A DNA stretch of 36,894 nucleotides. Origin: Ignavibacteria bacterium. Its GTDB lineage: Bacteria > Bacteroidota > Ignavibacteria > Ignavibacteriales > SURF-24. The stretch covers positions 14,591-51,484 of the forward strand of contig JAAXKN010000010.1 in NCBI GenBank assembly GCA_025612375.1. Reading direction: 5' to 3'. The position numbers were made by a program, and so were the translations under genes. The notes beneath the pieces are model-generated. The model was given only the letters and a program-made list of their open reading frames with translations. It was not told where the DNA came from and did no database searches. Positions 7,044 through 15,022 of the stretch are shown one piece after another (within the stretch, counting starts at the first letter, position 1; each line of letters begins with the position of its first letter).

Positions 7044-7583
7044 CTAAACCGCCTTTCCCATTTCGAATGCCTGCGTCATCGCCTTGTTTCTAATGATATC
7101 GCCTGTTTTCCAGGCTCCGGTTCCATATACAGTTCCCTTTTCCTGGGCCCCGTTGAGGCAGGAAGTAAAGCCCCTGAATCCTTCCAGGGTTCTTTCCATT
7201 GCTTTTTTAGTCCTGTCGGCAGCAGCCACAATGCAGTAGAATTCCTTATTGTTTATTTCCGTATAGCGTGAGCAGGTTCTGTCGATCAGAGTTTTCATCT
7301 GTGCGCTCATAGTGTAAAAGTAAACAGGTGTTGCCATTACAATAACGTCGGAGGCTATCATTTTCTCCAGTATTTCAGCCATATCGTCTTTCTGGGGGCA
7401 GTTTTTTCCGCCGTCAAAGCATTTGCCGCACCCGGTGCAGTAGTTTATTTTTTTATTCTTCAGGAATATCTTTTCCGGATTATGCCCCGCCTGCTGTGCC
7501 CCCAAAAGAAACTGATCACACAGAAGATCTGAGTTTCCTCCCTTGCGGGGGCTGGAGGATAGTACTAAAACTTTTTTATTCAT
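7044..7583 (-). CDS. Flavodoxin-fold iron-sulfur flavoprotein / NAD(P)H-dependent FMN reductase-like
   Basis: The 179-residue protein starts with a flavodoxin-like strand and the FMN phosphate-binding loop SSSPRKGGNS (residues 9-18). A compact cysteine motif follows with Cys49, Cys52, Cys55 and Cys62, typical of iron-sulfur flavoproteins of the Isf type. ATPVYFYTMSAQMKTLIDR (about 89-107) matches the family's flavin/dimer segment. The ATG at 7583 is preferred over an upstream in-frame GTG. It lies 109 bases downstream of the CcdA gene on the same strand, so it may be the last gene of the arsenic/redox island, but the gap leaves this open. It lacks the motifs of ArsH. Confidence 0.85.
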   Translation of the reverse strand: MNKKVLVLSSSPRKGGNSDLLCDQFLLGAQQAGHNPEKIFLKNKKINYCTGCGKCFDGGKNCPQKDDMAEILEKMIASDVIVMATPVYFYTMSAQMKTLIDRTCSRYTEINNKEFYCIVAAADRTKKAMERTLEGFRGFTSCLNGAQEKGTVYGTGAWKTGDIIRNKAMTQAFEMGKAV

Positions 7584-7692
7584 TATCTCATTTTCTTTAA
7601 ATATCACAGTCTGAATTTTTGCCGTACAAACATAAGAAAAAACCGCAGAACTTATGCTCTAATTATTTAAGGACATTATAATTTCTGGTTTT

Positions 7693-8394
7693 CTAATACT
7701 GATTCATGATAATATAAAGTCCGCCTAAAATAACCAGGACTCCGCAGGCTCTTTTCGTATAAGTCATAAGCCTCGAGCTTTCAGTCCAGTTAAGATACTG
7801 CTGAACCGCCCTGCTCAGGGTTCCTGCCCCGGCAATTACAGTGCAGTGGCCGAGTGCAAAACAAGTCAGAAGAGTCACAGACAGCATAACCTCTGAAGAA
7901 GCCGCCTGAAAGACCACTCCGAGAACGGGCGCCATAAAGGCGAATGTGCACGGCCCAAGCCCAATGCCGAAAAGGAGCCCGAGCAGGAATGCAGCCGTGA
8001 GCCCCTTATATTTTGTTGAACTTACACCAAGGGCATTCCAGGGAAGTTTAATTAAGTCTAGCAGGTAGAGCCCCATTGCAAAGAATACGGCAGCAACAAG
8101 GTAGTTGCCCGTTGAACCTATATCCCCCATCAGGCGCCCAAGCAGCAGTGTTATTAACCCCAACATGGCTATTGTAATTAATATCCCGAAGGCAAATGTA
8201 AGGGATATGCTGAATGTTCTCTTAAGAGAAATGCCGCCCTGAGTTGTTATGTAGCCTACGACAAGAGGAATACTTGATAAGTGGCAGGGACTTAAAAGTA
8301 TGCTTAATATACCCCAGGTAAAAGAGGCAAATGAAGCCAGGTAAATATTGCCATAAAGAGCTGAGTTTAACCAGGTAAAAATTTCATTCAGCAT
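7693..8394 (-). CDS. CcdA/DsbD-type transmembrane thiol-disulfide transporter
   Basis: The 233-residue protein has about six membrane spans and two cysteines in conserved positions: Cys37 in LSPCHLSS and Cys149 in LGPCTFAF. These match the redox-active pair of CcdA and the DsbD central domain, which carry electrons from cytoplasmic thioredoxin across the membrane. It lies 27 bases after a gene for a secreted thioredoxin, its expected acceptor. In this island it probably supplies reducing power to periplasmic thiols. A role in cytochrome c maturation is the alternative, but no heme-handling gene is near. Confidence 0.9.
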   Translation of the reverse strand: MLNEIFTWLNSALYGNIYLASFASFTWGILSILLSPCHLSSIPLVVGYITTQGGISLKRTFSISLTFAFGILITIAMLGLITLLLGRLMGDIGSTGNYLVAAVFFAMGLYLLDLIKLPWNALGVSSTKYKGLTAAFLLGLLFGIGLGPCTFAFMAPVLGVVFQAASSEVMLSVTLLTCFALGHCTVIAGAGTLSRAVQQYLNWTESSRLMTYTKRACGVLVILGGLYIIMNQY

Positions 8395-8421
8395 ATTAAA
8401 CCCGCAGGAATTTGTGATAGT

Positions 8422-8805
8422 TTAGTTTAGAATTTTCAGGCCTTTGGACTGAAGGAACTTATCAATTTCTTTTTCGGCAAAGAACCCTTCATGCCTGAAT
8501 ATCTCTTTGCCCGTTTCATCCAGAAAAACCTGAGTCGGTATGAGCTTTATGCCGTACTGCCGGCTGTATTTTTTCTGATCCTCTTTCCAGACGTCGTAGA
8601 AAACAACTTTTATCTGTCTGCCGTATTTTTTTTCAACTGATTTCATAACCGGCTGCATCTGTTTGCATGGTATGCATCTTACAGACCCGAGTTCCACGAA
8701 AGTTATCCGGGGCTTAAGCTCAGGAGAACTTTTCCCGCCCGGGCTCTGGGCATAATTTAATGAAAAGGCTAAGAGAGCAAGTATCAGGACAAAAGTCTTT
8801 TTCAT
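8422..8805 (-). CDS. Secreted thioredoxin-family protein
   Basis: The 127-residue protein opens with a signal peptide (MKKTFVLILALLAFSLNYAQ), so it should be periplasmic. The thioredoxin fold carries the active site CIPC (Cys44 and Cys47) in SVRCIPCKQM, and the cis-proline is seen in KLIPTQVF. AAGGAG lies just upstream of the ATG. It sits between a small CxxC protein and the CcdA homologue, so it is the likely acceptor of electrons from CcdA. Its final target could be metal-binding or sulfur-containing proteins in the envelope; this is inference. Confidence 0.92.
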   Translation of the reverse strand: MKKTFVLILALLAFSLNYAQSPGGKSSPELKPRITFVELGSVRCIPCKQMQPVMKSVEKKYGRQIKVVFYDVWKEDQKKYSRQYGIKLIPTQVFLDETGKEIFRHEGFFAEKEIDKFLQSKGLKILN

Positions 8806-8820
8806 TTTAATTCTCCTTAC

Positions 8821-9057
8821 TTAAGCTTGTTTTAACCATTGAAGGATCTGTTCACTTTTAGGAATTATACCGCTCGAAACGACTTTTTCGTTTACAACGA
8901 GGCCCGGCGTCATAAGGATACCGTATTTCATTATCTCCGGAATATCGGTTACTTTGACCACTTCGGCCTCAATATTATTTTTTTCAATTACATCTTTTAC
9001 TGACGATTCAAGATTTTTGCATCTTGCACAGCCCGTTCCAAGTACCTTTACAACCAT
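8821..9057 (-). CDS. Small thioredoxin-like redox-active disulfide protein (TM0996/MTH895 type)
   Basis: This 78-residue cytoplasmic protein has CARC (Cys10 and Cys13) near its N-terminus, in GTGCARCKN, and the thioredoxin cis-proline region LMTPGLVVN. Length and motifs match the small redox-active disulfide protein family found beside CcdA and arsenic genes in many bacteria. AGGAGATC precedes the ATG. It may reduce ArsC or pass electrons to CcdA; which of these holds cannot be read from the sequence. Confidence 0.88.
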   Translation of the reverse strand: MVVKVLGTGCARCKNLESSVKDVIEKNNIEAEVVKVTDIPEIMKYGILMTPGLVVNEKVVSSGIIPKSEQILQWLKQA

Positions 9058-9122: not shown

Positions 9123-10181
9123 TTAATAGACCAGATTAAACAGATAGCCTACAATGATTATTCCCAAAGCCACAACCCCGATAAATGTCAGGATAAGAGG
9201 AAGCTTTAATACTTTTTTAAGTATTATCGTTTCAGGAAGAGAAAGCCCGATTACAGACATCATAAATGCCAGTACAGTGCCAAGCGATGCCCCCTTTTCA
9301 AGAAGCGCCTGCACTATTGGAATTATTCCTGCGGCATTCGAGTACATCGGCACACCTATCATAACCGATAATGGCACCGACCACCAGGCACTTTTGCCCA
9401 TAAGGCCTGCCATAAAGTTTTCAGGCACATATCCGTGAATTCCGGCGCCTACGGCAATACCTAAAACTATATAGATCCAAACCTTCGATACAATTTCCCT
9501 TACAGCCTCAAAGCCTGAGGTAATCCTTTCTGTAAAAAGAGGCTTTGCCTCAGAGAGTTCAAGCTTCCCGGCTTTGACCTGATAGACCCAGTCCTCAACA
9601 TACCGTTCCAGCCTGAGGCGGCCTATTACGTAGCCTGAGAACATTGCAATTATGAGTCCTGTTGACATGTAAAGCAGGGCTGTCTGCCAGCCGAAGAGCC
9701 CGAACAAAAGCACCAGAGCGACCTCATTTATCATGGGAGCTGCAATCAGAAACGAGAATGTAACGCCAAGAGGAACGCCTGACTCTATAAAACCAAGGAA
9801 AAGCGGAATAGCCGAACAAGAGCAGAAAGGAGTTACAATACCCAGAATGCTGGCAAGAACGTTACCGGTAAAAAGGGATTTCCCCTCAAGCATCTTTCTT
9901 GTCCTTTCCGGCGAGAAGTACGTCCTTATTATACCCACGGCAAAAACAATCAGCACCAGAAGAAGCAAAACCTTGGGTACTTCATAAATGAAAAATCTGA
10001 CGGCTTCAGTAAGATGAGAGTCTCTGTTCATTAAAAGGACATTATATGTAATGAAACCGGTAAAGGATTCAAGGCTAAAGTATGCAAGAGCCCATAAGGG
10101 AAGAAGCACTATAAGCAGTATGGTGTTCTTTCTTCCTTCCTGTGCCGCTATTAATTGTTCCGCATTTTCCGCATTTTCCAC
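9123..10181 (-). CDS. arsP: ArsP-like permease (DUF318/YraQ family)
   Basis: The 352-residue membrane protein has about eight to ten spans and the family motif FCSCS at 119-123 (Cys120 and Cys122), in the sequence TPFCSCSAIP. Members include ArsP, which exports trivalent organoarsenicals such as methylarsenite, and related permeases of unknown substrate. The start codon is GTG with AGAGGTT upstream; no ATG lies close by. It follows arsM after 91 bases that include a strong hairpin. A neighbouring methyltransferase makes methylarsenite a plausible substrate. Confidence 0.82.
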   Translation of the reverse strand: MENAENAEQLIAAQEGRKNTILLIVLLPLWALAYFSLESFTGFITYNVLLMNRDSHLTEAVRFFIYEVPKVLLLLVLIVFAVGIIRTYFSPERTRKMLEGKSLFTGNVLASILGIVTPFCSCSAIPLFLGFIESGVPLGVTFSFLIAAPMINEVALVLLFGLFGWQTALLYMSTGLIIAMFSGYVIGRLRLERYVEDWVYQVKAGKLELSEAKPLFTERITSGFEAVREIVSKVWIYIVLGIAVGAGIHGYVPENFMAGLMGKSAWWSVPLSVMIGVPMYSNAAGIIPIVQALLEKGASLGTVLAFMMSVIGLSLPETIILKKVLKLPLILTFIGVVALGIIIVGYLFNLVY

Positions 10182-10272: not shown

Positions 10273-11118
10273 TTAATTTATCTTTTTGTAACCAACAACC
10301 GTTATGCTAAATATGCCCTTTTCTCCCGAACTGAACGACTTTGCTTCCTCTTCCGGCATATACTTCATAAGAGTTTCCAAAGGAAGATCAATAATTTTGG
10401 ATTTTTTGATCTCAACATCAGTAAACCCGGCTTGGGATATTTTGCTTAAGTAATCCTCCTGCCTTAGGGCTCCCGCCACGCAGCCGGCGTACATTGCAGC
10501 CGACTGCCTTAAGGCTTCGGGGAGCTCCCCTTTTAATACGATGTCAGAGACGCAGAAGTGGCCGCCGGGTTTAATTATCCTGTACATCTCGCTGAATGCT
10601 TTCTTCTTATCCGGAACAAGGTTAAGCACGCAGTTGCTTACAACTACGTCTGCAGTGTTGTCTTCGAGCGGCATATCTTCAATTTCACCCAGGTAAAACT
10701 CAACATTCTTAACGCCCAGCTTTTCTTTGTTTTTATTTGCCTTGGCGATCATTTCAGACGTCATATCGAGGCCAATAACCCTTCCTTTCTCACCTGCAAT
10801 TGATCTGGCAATAAAGACGTCGTTGCCGGCGCCTGAACCCAGGTCCACTACCGTATCCCCTTCTTTTATTGCGGCAAACTGTGTGGGCAGGCCGCAGCCC
10901 AAATTTAAGTCGGCCTCAGGAACATAACCCTGAAGGTGTATATAGTCATCGCTCATTATAGTATAATTAACATCATCTGACGAACCTGAGCAGCATGAGA
11001 TCTGTACCGGCTCAGATGCTGAAGAGCAGCAGCAGGACTTTGCCGGTTTATCGGACTGGACGGCTATCTGACCGTACTTCTCTTTTACCATTTCTTTTAA
11101 CTCTTTTTCGTTATCCAT
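10273..11118 (-). CDS. arsM: Arsenite S-adenosylmethionine methyltransferase
   Basis: This enzyme methylates arsenite with S-adenosylmethionine. The 281-residue protein has the SAM-binding motif VDLGSGAGND (91-100) and the three catalytic cysteines expected of ArsM: Cys75 in NLGCG, Cys163 in VSNCVLNLVP and Cys213 in YAGCVAGAL. The N-terminal stretch holds two further clusters, Cys29-31 and Cys42-43, which could pre-bind arsenic. AGGAGG lies upstream of the ATG. It starts 24 bases after the ACR3 gene, so it belongs to the same transcript. Confidence 0.96.
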   Translation of the reverse strand: MDNEKELKEMVKEKYGQIAVQSDKPAKSCCCSSASEPVQISCCSGSSDDVNYTIMSDDYIHLQGYVPEADLNLGCGLPTQFAAIKEGDTVVDLGSGAGNDVFIARSIAGEKGRVIGLDMTSEMIAKANKNKEKLGVKNVEFYLGEIEDMPLEDNTADVVVSNCVLNLVPDKKKAFSEMYRIIKPGGHFCVSDIVLKGELPEALRQSAAMYAGCVAGALRQEDYLSKISQAGFTDVEIKKSKIIDLPLETLMKYMPEEEAKSFSSGEKGIFSITVVGYKKIN

Positions 11119-11142: not shown

Positions 11143-12219
11143 TTATTGAGCAACTGTACTAAGTTCATTCTGCTTTTCAGATGCAAAGTATTTCCTCCTG
11201 ATCCAAAATGCCACGTTTACCAGGCTTATGAGCACCGGCACTTCCACCAGGGGGCCAATAACGGCAGCAAATGCCTCCCCTGAATTTATGCCGAAAACTG
11301 CAATTGCAACGGCAATTGCCAGCTCAAAATTGTTGCTTGCAGCCGTAAACGACAGTGTTGCTGCTTTTGAGTAAGAGGCGCCTGCCTTTTTCCCCAAAAA
11401 GAATGAGACCGTAAACATAATTACAAAATAAAATACCAGCGGGAGCGCTATTCTTACGACGTCCAGTGGAATTTTTACTATATATTCCCCTTTAAGCGAA
11501 AACATAACGAAAATTGTAAAGAGCAGAGCAACGAGTGTAACCGGGCTGACTTTTGGAATAAACACCTTCTCATACCACTCTTTTCCTTTTACCCTTAGCA
11601 TCAGAAAGCGCGTTATCATGCCGCCTAAAAACGGGATTCCGAGATAAATAAATACGCTCTTTGCAATCTGTGCTATCGTTATATCCACGGCAAACGTCCT
11701 CAGGCCCAGCCATGATGGAATAATTGTCAGGAATACATAGGCATAGACTGAGAAGAACAGAACCTGGAATATTGAATTGAAAGCCACAAGTCCTGCGCAA
11801 TATTCAGTATCCCCCTTTGCAAGCTCGTTCCAGACGATCACCATTGCAATGCATCTTGCAAGGCCGATTAGTATCAGGCCCGCCATGTATTCAGGATAAT
11901 TCTGAAGGAATATGACTGCAAGAAGAAACATAAGTATTGGTCCTATTATCCAGTTCTGTATGAGAGACAAGGACAATACCTTAAGGTTCCTGAACACGTC
12001 GGGCAGTTCCTCGTACTTCACCTTTGCCAGAGGCGGATACATCATCAGAATAAGCCCTGCGGCAATAGGAATATTTGTTGTCCCGCTTTGGAAGCTGTTC
12101 CAGAAGCTTACAATTCCAGGGAAAAGGTATCCTGAAAATACGCCCATAATCATTGCAAGGAATATCCAGAGCGTTAAATAGCGGTCAAGAAATGAAAGTC
12201 TTTTTGTTAAACTTCCCAT
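11143..12219 (-). CDS. acr3: ACR3-family arsenite efflux transporter
   Basis: The 358-residue inner-membrane protein has about ten spans and pumps arsenite out of the cell, driven by the membrane potential. The family signature [19 protein letters not shown], with its conserved cysteine, is visible, as is the downstream [18 protein letters not shown] helix. GGAG precedes the ATG. It lies 38 bases after the SO_0444-type permease and 24 bases before arsM. There is no arsA or arsD, so the pump should work without an ATPase. Confidence 0.96.
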
Positions 12220-12257: not shown

Positions 12258-13400
12258 TTACATCGCCGGGTAAACTGCGTAATAAAGTAAACCGCTCAAA
12301 ATTGCAAAGGCCAGAGTAAAGCCAACATACAGGAAGAATACCTTTCTGTTTGCCAGATTCCATACTGCAGCCATTGCGGGAATTGTGGTTGTAGGCCCCG
12401 AGATCAGAAATGCCAATCCCGCAGCCGGAGCCATTCCCTTGCTTATCAGGCCTCCTACCAATGCAAGTGCCGGCATTGTGCTGGTATAGACCGGAACGCC
12501 GGCAACGGCGGCCATAATAATTGAAACGAAACTGTTCCCTCCCAGAAATGATGCTAAAACACTTTCCGGGATGTATAGAACTATTAAGGCTTCAAGGAAA
12601 TAGGCCAGGATCATAAATTTTACCACCATTAAGGCAGAGCTGAAAGCCTCTGTGGCGAGCTTTTTTATGAATCTTTTTTCAGGCGTTTTCACTGCTTCGG
12701 ATGAACTGACTTCGGGAATGCAGCCGCAGCCTGAAGCCTGAGCTATGCATTGACACCCGCAGGCCGGGACCTGGAATGCACTAATAACCGGGGCTGCACT
12801 ATTACACCCGCATACGTCAGACCGCCTGCTGTTTTCAGCAAAAGCCAGAGAGCTTTCAAGCTGAGTATTCCCTGGGGTAAAATATTTTTTTATCATGGCA
12901 TAGCACTCTTTTACCGGCTTCCAACTCTCCTTTGAAGGAGAATAGGTATGCGCTTTTAGTGTTGCTTCCTCTGTTATCCACCCTCTTTTTACAAGAAGAT
13001 GCGTAATCAGGCCTGACATAAAACTCATTGCAAATGCGGAGCCTATTCTCCAGATTGCCATTTGCCAGCCGAGCATTGAAACGCTTAGGAAAAACATTTC
13101 CGGATCCATTGACGGCGAAGCCAGCCAGAAAGACATTACAGGTGCTATAGGCACGCCTCCAATCAAAAGAGAAGCTACAACCGGAATTACACTGCATGAG
13201 CAAAATGGACTGAAAGCCCCGACAACTGTTGAGAGCAATATTGAAATAAGGGGCGACCTGTTGAACGCCTTACCAATATATTTGGATGCGCCCGACATTT
13301 TTACCAGTACGGCAAAAGGAACTGATATCAGCAGGTATGGCCACACGTGTATTATGCTTTGCCAGATAAATCCAGCTATTTTAAATAATTCAATGAACAT
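12258..13400 (-). CDS. SO_0444-type Cu/Zn efflux or ArsP-like permease with cysteine-rich loop
   Basis: The 380-residue membrane protein belongs to the same broad permease family as ArsP. It has SPFCSCSVIP at about 64-73, with CSCS at 67-70. Between its two membrane halves lies a polar loop of about 80 residues with seven cysteines at 197, 199, 214, 216, 218, 225 and 227, arranged as CGC, CGCQC and CGC. Such a loop is typical of the SO_0444 Cu/Zn efflux group. The second ATG (13400) is chosen because GGAGG sits six bases upstream of it and overlaps the first ATG (13412). Substrate may be arsenite, copper or zinc; ars context favours arsenic species but does not prove it. Confidence 0.83.
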   Translation of the reverse strand: MFIELFKIAGFIWQSIIHVWPYLLISVPFAVLVKMSGASKYIGKAFNRSPLISILLSTVVGAFSPFCSCSVIPVVASLLIGGVPIAPVMSFWLASPSMDPEMFFLSVSMLGWQMAIWRIGSAFAMSFMSGLITHLLVKRGWITEEATLKAHTYSPSKESWKPVKECYAMIKKYFTPGNTQLESSLAFAENSRRSDVCGCNSAAPVISAFQVPACGCQCIAQASGCGCIPEVSSSEAVKTPEKRFIKKLATEAFSSALMVVKFMILAYFLEALIVLYIPESVLASFLGGNSFVSIIMAAVAGVPVYTSTMPALALVGGLISKGMAPAAGLAFLISGPTTTIPAMAAVWNLANRKVFFLYVGFTLAFAILSGLLYYAVYPAM

Positions 13401-13425
13401 GATTTCCTCCATCTAATTTTTTTGA

Positions 13426-13489: not shown

Positions 13490-14044
13490 TTATGTTTTTA
13501 CTTTAGGACAGCAGCAGCAGACTTTGCAGTAATCTATTACTGTCCCATATTTATCAAATTCAAAATGGCAGCACTGAAGCAGCAGATCCCTCAGCATTTT
13601 CCTGGCCCGCTGCACACGGCTTTTGGCTCCTGTAAGCGATATATTCATCCTTAAAGCAAGTTCTTTCTGCGTCAGTCCATGGTATTCGGTAAGCAGAATT
13701 GCATCGCGGTAAATCTGCGGCAGCTCTTCAACCATATCAAATAATCCAAGGCTTGCCTTTCTGTGCGCATCATCTTCTTCATCACCTTCTTCAGAGGCGG
13801 CATGGCTGTCTTCAATTTCCACATACTGCTTTCTTTTTCTGTAGTAGTCTATGATGGCATTTCTTGTTATCTGAAATACCCAGCTTTCCAGTTTTGAAGT
13901 ATCCTTCAGAGATGCAATGCTGCTGTGTATCTTTATGAAAACGTCGTGAAGTATATCCTCGGCAGCCGCCTCATTGCCAACACGGCTGAAAATAAAATAC
14001 TTCAGCTGTTTACCAAGTCTATTATACAACTGTTCAGTAATCAT
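13490..14044 (-). CDS. sigZ: SigZ-like ECF RNA polymerase sigma factor with cysteine-rich tail
   Basis: The 184-residue protein has sigma region 2 (about 10-75, with ILHDVFIKIH and DYYRKRKQ) and region 4 (about 105-155, with helix-turn-helix LTQKELALRMNISLTGAKSR). The acidic linker (75-95) is rich in Glu and Asp. The C-terminal tail has Cys158-159, Cys173 and Cys176-179, the last four in a row, as in SigZ-type factors. Its ATG overlaps the arsC stop by one base (TAATG), so the two are translationally coupled. No separate anti-sigma gene is visible in the island. The tail may sense arsenite or thiol state; this is inference. Confidence 0.88.
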   Translation of the reverse strand: MITEQLYNRLGKQLKYFIFSRVGNEAAAEDILHDVFIKIHSSIASLKDTSKLESWVFQITRNAIIDYYRKRKQYVEIEDSHAASEEGDEEDDAHRKASLGLFDMVEELPQIYRDAILLTEYHGLTQKELALRMNISLTGAKSRVQRARKMLRDLLLQCCHFEFDKYGTVIDYCKVCCCCPKVKT

Positions 14045-14463
14045 TATTTAATTCCGGAGTAGAATTCAAGGAATTTATGACTTATTTCATCTCTTATTCT
14101 TCTGAATTCACTCAATATCTCCTCCTCATTACCCTGTGCACCAGCCGGGTCATCAAAGCCAATGTGGAGCCTTTGGCCTACGCGTCCTGTAAAGACCGGG
14201 CAGGTTTCACGGGCATTATCGCATACGGTTATGACATAATCAAAATGCTTGTCTGCAAATTCGTTTACATCTTTCGGATGTCCTTTGCTGATATCAATTC
14301 CCTTTTCAGCCATTACCTTTATGGCATTCGGGTTAATACCCGAAGAAGGTTTTGTACCGGCAGAATAGACTTCCAGTTCTGTGTCAAATGCTTTCAGGAA
14401 ACCCTCAGCCATCTGGCTGCGGCAGGAGTTTCCCGTGCAAAGTATTAGAATCCTTTTCTTCAT
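14044..14463 (-). CDS. arsC: Arsenate reductase, thioredoxin-coupled (LMW phosphatase type)
   Basis: The 139-residue cytoplasmic enzyme reduces arsenate to arsenite. It has the P-loop CTGNSCRS beginning at Cys9, which supplies the nucleophile, and a resolving pair in VCDNARETCPVF. FDDPAGA carries the general acid Asp. This pattern is that of the thioredoxin-dependent ArsC, so the island's CxxC proteins are candidate electron donors. The ATG at 14463 is chosen because AAGGGA sits just upstream; an ATG 12 bases further out is the alternative. It is coupled to the sigma-factor gene through TAATG. Confidence 0.96.
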   Translation of the reverse strand: MKKRILILCTGNSCRSQMAEGFLKAFDTELEVYSAGTKPSSGINPNAIKVMAEKGIDISKGHPKDVNEFADKHFDYVITVCDNARETCPVFTGRVGQRLHIGFDDPAGAQGNEEEILSEFRRIRDEISHKFLEFYSGIK

Positions 14464-14486
14464 AGTTCCCTTCATTGCCCCGGATT

Positions 14487-14506
14487 ATTTCGCTTTTAGC
14501 CGAAAT
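14487..14506. promoter_or_regulatory. Probable ArsR operator between arsR and arsC
   Basis: ATTTCG (14487-14492) and CGAAAT (14501-14506) are perfect inverted arms with an eight-base spacer. The same core and spacing occur in the arsR promoter. The element lies 24 bases upstream of the arsC ATG, so ArsR could adjust arsC independently of arsR. Confidence 0.6.
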
Positions 14507-14522
14507 ATTGTTTAATTTTTTT

Positions 14523-14885
14523 TTAACCGCAGCACAGTTTATTACGGTCAACAGTTATAACCTTCTCGGAATCGATGTCCAGGGTTTTGTCGCTGCTTAG
14601 CCAGAACGGGAGCATTGAGAGTAAAGATGCCACCGTAGGGTCAGAGATACGTGGATTAATCATATAATTAACCCATTTCCCTTCTTTTTCTCCCGCTATA
14701 AATCCCGCTGTTTCCAGCGTTTTCAGATGCTCTGAGACCGTTGAGGGTGCGAGATCCAGCACTGCAGTGATTTCACATACGCAGAGTTTTTTCCCCTGAA
14801 GCATCCTTATTATTCTCAGCCTGTTGGGATCTGAAAGTGCCTTAAAGAGCCTGGCTTTTTCTTCTAAAATCATATTGTCTTTCAT
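14523..14885 (-). CDS. arsR: ArsR-family metalloregulatory repressor
   Basis: The 120-residue winged-helix protein fits ArsR/SmtB. It has ALSDPNRLRIIRML (about 16-29), the metal-binding pair Cys35 and Cys37 in KLCVCEI, and recognition helix LAPSTVSEHLKTLETAGF. A second pair, Cys118-Cys119, lies at the extreme C-terminus (LCCG). Arsenite binding at the cysteines would release it from DNA. It is the first gene of the island and has its own promoter with an overlapping operator. Confidence 0.95.
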   Translation of the reverse strand: MKDNMILEEKARLFKALSDPNRLRIIRMLQGKKLCVCEITAVLDLAPSTVSEHLKTLETAGFIAGEKEGKWVNYMINPRISDPTVASLLSMLPFWLSSDKTLDIDSEKVITVDRNKLCCG

Positions 14886-14889
14886 TTCG

Positions 14890-14907
14890 TTTCGTTATAT
14901 ACCGAAA
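14890..14907. promoter_or_regulatory. ArsR operator overlapping the arsR promoter
   Basis: TTTCG (14890-14894) and CGAAA (14903-14907) are inverted arms with an eight-base spacer, matching the element before arsC. A direct copy of TTTCG stands at 14885-14889. The repeat overlaps the -10 box, so a bound repressor would block polymerase. Confidence 0.65.
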
Positions 14908-14934
14908 TATATGGCGGCAGAATTTAATTGTCAA
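14906..14934 (-). promoter_or_regulatory. Sigma70-like promoter of the arsenic island
   Basis: On the minus strand TTGACA (14929-14934, perfect -35) is followed after exactly 17 bases by TATATT (14906-14911, five of six -10 consensus). Transcription would start near 14899, about 14 bases before the arsR ATG. The leader is therefore short and carries the operator. Confidence 0.78.
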
Positions 14935-14994: not shown

Positions 14995-15022
14995 AACCCG
15001 GTGCTCCAGAGTGCACCGGGTT
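14995..15022 (-). terminator. Terminator-like hairpin after the chitinase gene
   Basis: AACCCGGTGC (14995-15004) and GCACCGGGTT (15013-15022) form a perfect ten-base GC-rich stem with an eight-base loop. It sits 16 bases past the chitinase stop. The T-run behind it is weak (TTTCTCTGT), so efficiency is uncertain, but it separates chitinase transcription from the arsR promoter. Confidence 0.75.

Follow-up and report, generated by a model that had tools for sequence, protein, structure and literature searches.

A palindrome conserved on both sides of arsR in Ignavibacteria and their relatives: a predicted promoter operator and a putative roadblock site behind the repressor gene

Background

Why should a palindrome that overlaps the promoter of an arsenic repressor gene be repeated directly behind that gene, ahead of the genes that the repressor would control? 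The question is raised by a stretch of 36,894 bases from an Ignavibacteria bacterium (hereafter the window), in which an earlier note had seen TTTCG-N8-CGAAA overlapping the -10 box of the arsR promoter and the same architecture recurring between arsR and arsC. Both sites are exact matches to the pattern. The first (TTTCGTTATATACCGAAA), here O1, shares two bases with the -10 box, and the second (TTTCGCTTTTAGCCGAAA), here O2, lies between the two genes (Table 1). The note had taken both for ArsR operators, pointing to autorepression and to a second control point that governs the remainder of the island. We used sequence analysis and comparison with relatives to ask what the second site might do.

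Results and Discussion

The arsR locus

Table 1. Predicted features of the arsenic region, in descending order of position in the window
Feature	Position	Strand	Remarks
arsR promoter, TTGACA-17-TATATT	14906..14934	-	11/12 consensus bases; -10 box overlaps O1 by two bases
O1, predicted promoter operator, TTTCG-N8-CGAAA	14890..14907	-	exact match; dyad centre about 14898.5
arsR, 120 aa	14523..14885	-	PF01022 61.9 bits (cut-off 22); NF033788 88.8 bits (cut-off 55)
A/T-rich spacer, arsR stop to O2	14506..14522	-	A run in the window
O2, predicted auxiliary operator	14488..14505	-	between arsR and arsC, 17 nt 3' of arsR stop; exact match
arsC, arsenate reductase, probably thioredoxin type	14044..14475	-	PF01451 79.9 bits; TIGR02691 133.8 bits, under the cut-off of 174.3
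ECF sigma factor, SigZ type	13490..14044	-	TIGR02959 196.2 bits (cut-off 168.65)
ArsP_1 permease	12258..13412	-	PF03773
acr3, arsenite exporter	11143..12219	-	TIGR00832 457.7 bits (cut-off 282.8)
arsM, arsenite methyltransferase	10273..11118	-	NF008823 338.8 bits (cut-off 263)
Second ArsP_1 permease	9123..10181	-	PF03773
ArsE-like thioredoxin, thioredoxin, protein with weak TsoB match, FMN reductase	7044..9057	-	probable operon tail

All genes from arsR to the FMN reductase gene lie on one strand with gaps of at most 91 nt, and from this order and these gaps we infer that they likely form one operon, in which arsC is the first gene 3' of O2. A GH18 gene is found upstream of arsR on the same strand; between the two, at 14995-15022 on the + strand, lies a terminator-like hairpin of 10 pairs (7 G-C) with a T-rich tail. 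The SigZ-type ECF sigma factor encoded inside this arsenic operon has a cysteine-rich C-terminus, and its start codon overlaps the arsC stop; a search for this gene among the 80 relative loci described below gave no match at E 1e-5.

The repressor contains the winged helix-turn-helix domain of the ArsR/SmtB metalloregulator family, with both library models above their cut-offs, and its second methionine, at 14873, is a possible alternative start. We take the arsenite site of E. coli ArsR to be Cys32/34/37, that is, a Cys-x-Cys motif with a third cysteine in helix 3. C35 and C37 are present in all 81 ArsR rows (the window and 80 relatives), having been partly selected by the search pattern, and the third helix-3 cysteine of the E. 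coli-type site occurs in none of the 81. A C-terminal cysteine, C118, is present in 78 of the 81, and a mixed arsenite site formed by helix 3 and the C-terminus is possible in this ArsR group. Its gene context, namely the arsC, acr3, arsM and ArsP_1 genes, makes the protein a candidate arsenite-responsive ArsR.

The exact palindrome is rare

The two exact copies of TTTCG-N8-CGAAA are the only ones in the window, against a mean of 0.07 in shuffled sequences, and two or more were reached in none of 100 shuffles. A genome scan, proposed in the same note, recovered three exact sites in the 5,232,221 bases of the organism's own genome. Two of these are O1 and O2, and the third (C41:31409) falls within an open stretch of 440 codons. 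The exact palindrome is rare in this genome, since the control, the same pattern read backwards, gave 23 matches. When up to one mismatch is allowed, the window has 3 sites against 1.83 expected and the genome 151 places against 524 for the backward control; within a single genome, therefore, the exact form alone is informative, and these looser matches cannot be read as sites. A larger regulon was accordingly rejected, with the window at chance level for up to one mismatch and the third exact site inside an open reading frame.

The scan for promoters gave no overall excess (3 sites versus 2.3 in shuffles), so that the call of the arsR promoter rests on a register conserved in relatives, to which we return below. 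By the geometry of this promoter, transcription would start near the middle of the palindrome at O1. On its sequence, the locus is thus a candidate autoregulated ars operon, with a predicted operator overlapping the arsR promoter.

Both sites are conserved around arsR in relatives

A protein search covered 39 genomes related at the level of the order or closer, and 38 of them gave ArsR matches. In the flanking DNA of 30 loci, many of the close arsR relatives proved to have the palindrome on one side or on both; the exact site was absent in the four most distant loci examined (L030-L033). A scan of named genomes then matched 271 arsR relatives; we retained the 80 best matches, so that the sample leans towards close relatives; by NCBI ranks these comprise 43 Ignavibacteriota and 17 Bacteroidota, with the rest in other phyla or unassigned. 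Of the 79 relatives with upstream DNA (L071 has none), 76 have a site there that departs from the pattern at no more than one position (66 exact, 10 with one mismatch). Downstream, within 170 bp, 20 of 78 loci have an exact site, 26 a site with one mismatch and 16 a site with two, or 46/78 with up to one mismatch and 62/78 with up to two; the other two loci, L058 and L090, stop at a contig end. In random 170-bp pieces of the same loci (n=4020) the corresponding values are 0.1%, 0.5% and 8.9%, or cumulatively 0.6% and 9.5%. By a strict rule (at most two mismatches, 0-30 nt 3' of the arsR stop) O2 is present in 60 of the 78 loci; L038 and L056 fail this rule because their sites lie further from the stop. 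The 18 loci without O2 by this rule are 7 from Ignavibacteriota, 2 from Bacteroidota, 3 from Calditrichota, 2 from Fidelibacterota and 4 unassigned.

A search that ignored genes, for two exact palindromes 370-399 bp apart in 395 genomes of the phylum, returned 9 genomes, all of the same order, and none for the backward control. At seven of the nine places the protein search had also matched arsR, and at the other two (G336, G355) the DNA resembles the start of ArsR by eye. The organism's own genome is outside the nine because its spacing, 402 bp, lies outside the allowed gap of 370-399 bp, as do 12 of 56 spacings in the named relatives.

The motif is not general to the ArsR family. Twenty-four distant ArsR genes of related genomes have no exact site around them, and in the 22 of their downstream flanks that could be read, allowing one mismatch still gave no site; in three upstream flanks of distant ArsR-family regulators (L127, L128, L134) a one-mismatch site of the form TTTCGATGGNTATCGAAT or TTTCGACAGATATCGAAT is present. 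Conservation at both flanks of arsR strongly supports the proposal that an ArsR operator is likely at both places, and the absence of the exact motif around the distant ArsR-family genes adds to it. The predicted operators likewise agree with autorepression joined to a second control point over the remaining genes of the island.

The downstream site follows arsR and not a particular next gene

Of the 78 loci with downstream DNA, 75 have their next mechanically called open reading frame in the same direction and no more than 400 bp away. This next gene varies in kind, and O2 is kept in 21/23 loci where it is of arsC type, 18/24 of arsP type, 8/8 with acr3, 4/6 with arsE and 3/4 with arsM; these classes, at least five in number, were set by sequence motifs of our own choosing and not by a library, and 15 of the 80 loci were unclassed or had no same-strand next gene. 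The ArsR tree requires no fewer than 26 changes of the next gene (200 label shuffles: mean 33.4, minimum 26) and no fewer than 10 of O2 (shuffled labels: mean 16.4, minimum 13), both counts being inflated by the few resolved forks of the tree. Outside the arsR flanks, 401 kb of these loci hold just two exact sites (L051, L059), each with a TATA-type left flank and fronting an arsM-like gene that precedes arsR; in both cases O2 is still found behind arsR. Thus, O2 goes with arsR rather than with one particular next gene.

This placement bears on the idea that O2 is a decoy that only tunes the concentration of free ArsR. Such a role would suit O2 as the weaker copy of the two, but a decoy would have no need of the position 0-30 nt behind arsR that O2 occupies in 60 of 78 loci, and we regard this role as extremely unlikely.

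Upstream sites look like promoters and downstream sites do not

The two classes of site differ in their surroundings. Upstream sites have TTG near -27 and TTATA directly before the palindrome, and 67 of 75 of them have a joint sigma-70-like -35/-10 register, against 1 of 60 downstream sites. The best sigma-70 score is 8-11 of 12 in 69 of the 75 upstream sites and 6-8 in 58 of the 60 downstream ones, and in the window it is 11 at the upstream site versus 6 at the downstream one. These figures bear directly on the possibility that a second, internal promoter drives arsC and its downstream genes, with O2 as its operator. In the window, the sequence on the left flank of O2 is AATATTTCGG, which is loosely -10-like, and intergenic gaps can hold promoters for other sigma factors, a SigZ-like sigma gene being part of this operon; with the register and the scores both against it, an internal promoter nevertheless appears unlikely. 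The difference in register refines the earlier proposal, as the second control point would be unlike a second promoter. An antisense promoter at O2 was also considered and rejected, CAA at +42 being present in 3 of 60 sites and TA at +20 in 19 of 60.

The downstream sites are also weaker, with a mean of 0.91 mismatches versus 0.11 upstream over 56 pairs. Within a locus, O1 and O2 agree on average (55 loci) in 90% of arm positions, 53% of spacer positions and 33% of left-flank positions. At position -2, C is found in 36 of 60 downstream sites versus T in 59 of 75 upstream sites, and we read this C as a probable preference of the operator freed from the -10 box.

A second site inside the transcribed region

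Transcribed from the arsR promoter, O2 could alternatively act at the level of RNA, as an attenuator or terminator hairpin and not as a protein site. A short RNA around O2 does form a 7-bp stem (-6.0 kcal/mol, z -1.99), and the accessible part of a report on the Bacillus CDB3 ars1 operon describes a hairpin between arsC and arsD that lowers operon expression (PMC4562236). However, no U run follows the stem at O2, the terminator scan lists none there, the fold with flanks is no better than that of shuffles (z -0.09), and the same letters recur at O1, at a promoter. Given the result of the scan and the fold with flanks, we rejected an RNA hairpin or terminator at O2 as very improbable.

Pairs of operators can also strengthen repression by looping, as at the lac or gal operators. 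Bridging of O1 and O2 by ArsR, with a DNA loop of about 390 bp, would accord with two similar operators at fairly even spacing (372-442 bp, median 390, n=56), but the spacings have no 10.5-bp phase preference (Rayleigh p about 0.45, n=56), though at about 390 bp phasing may be weak. Of eleven periods tried, 13 bp alone gave a low value (p 0.007), which we take as chance. The ArsR of E. coli R773 is moreover described as a homodimer in the portion of PMC3918153 consulted, offering no obvious bridge. On this evidence a loop seems quite unlikely.

The reading that we consider probable is that of an ArsR operator pair, in which O1 would block initiation and O2 would serve as a non-promoter roadblock inside the transcribed region. 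Without arsenite, ArsR would bind both palindromes. At O1 it would cover the -10 box and the likely transcription start and thereby block initiation, amounting to autorepression; at O2 it would stop polymerases leaking past O1, once arsR had been copied and before they reached arsC-sigZ-arsP-acr3-arsM. The supply of repressor would then be sufficient while the effector genes stay silent, and arsenite would free O1 and O2 and so open the operon. Seen directly are the two sites, their conservation, the missing promoter register at sites of the O2 type and the short distance between O2 and the 3' end of arsR; ArsR binding and roadblocking are what we infer. We favour a roadblock as the most economical reading, since O2-type sites lack a promoter register, lie inside the transcribed region and show no helical phasing. 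With a promoter register at 1 of 60 downstream sites, O2 is accordingly placed as a candidate roadblock, a predicted transcribed-region site with no sigma-70-like register at it; since the downstream sites are weaker than the upstream ones, it might be a poor block.

The spacer before O2 offers a possible addition. A run of at least five T within 22 nt of the arsR stop is found in 33 of 60 loci with O2 versus 2 of 18 without, the control being 7 of 87 other co-directional pairs of mechanically called open reading frames with gaps of 20-150 nt. The spacer in the window carries an A run, so a T run is not essential here, and we rejected it as a general feature. Where present, the T run suggests, speculatively, some help in releasing the polymerase. 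O2 and the preceding T run might even constitute a hairpin-less terminator gated by the repressor, a tentative and rather doubtful extension: a polymerase halted by ArsR would pause on a weak rU:dA hybrid and then be released, giving an arsR-only transcript until arsenite removes ArsR. If that were true, promoter-operator, arsR, T run and operator would together be one transferable sensor cassette for any effector gene.

The roadblock reading itself, if true, would account for the way in which a repressor under its own control can still be made while its targets are off. Low-background sensors would gain an operator pair shaped by natural selection, and arsenic operons in uncultured Ignavibacteria could be found by a simple motif.

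Comparison with known systems

In the chromosomal arsRBC operon of E. coli (L143), as here, arsR heads the operon, but the arsR-arsB gap has no clear second copy of the upstream region (best direct 24-mer 15/24, shuffles up to 17), by a test that is weak, the window itself scoring 17/24 with shuffles up to 17. The blind comparison of upstream region and gap was dropped as too weak, because the window itself is not above its shuffle maximum. In MG1655 a 24-nt inverted repeat (L143:695-718) matches the upstream arsR region at 18/24 when reversed, a value that may be chance.

The Bacillus CDB3 ars1 operon (PMC4562236), in the part of the report available to us, likewise has a control element between ars genes, with a shorter transcript besides the full one; there, however, it is an RNA hairpin between arsC and arsD, whereas here a palindrome in the DNA, a repeat of the promoter site, follows arsR directly. 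Natural repressor roadblocks include LacI, PurR, GalR, CcpA and CodY, and E. coli ArsR is also listed as a roadblock, in the sections consulted of a review (PMC10310618). These share with O2 a repressor site downstream of the transcription start, and differ in that the candidate site predicted here separates the gene of the repressor itself from the effector genes. Among the titles and opening lines of abstracts that made up the literature searched, with most subscription journals outside it, we recognised no natural second ArsR operator behind arsR.

The closest parallel is engineered. Reporters by Stocker (2003) and by Merulla and van der Meer, as cited in the portions seen of PMC3918153, PMC10310618 and PMC5116461, belong here, and in the pPR-arsR-ABS construct, as far as the consulted part of PMC3918153 describes it, a second ArsR site behind arsR lowers the background in E. 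coli. The order in these engineered reporters is the same, with promoter operator, arsR, second ArsR operator and output gene, the second site lowering uninduced expression. They were built by hand from E. coli ArsR and its own site, whereas the present pair is natural and consists of conserved, predicted TTTCG-N8-CGAAA operators. The predicted arrangement is thus a variant, natural and conserved, of a type of control already known and, if our reading is true, the trick by which engineers lower the background of their biosensors exists in nature, conserved over a bacterial group.
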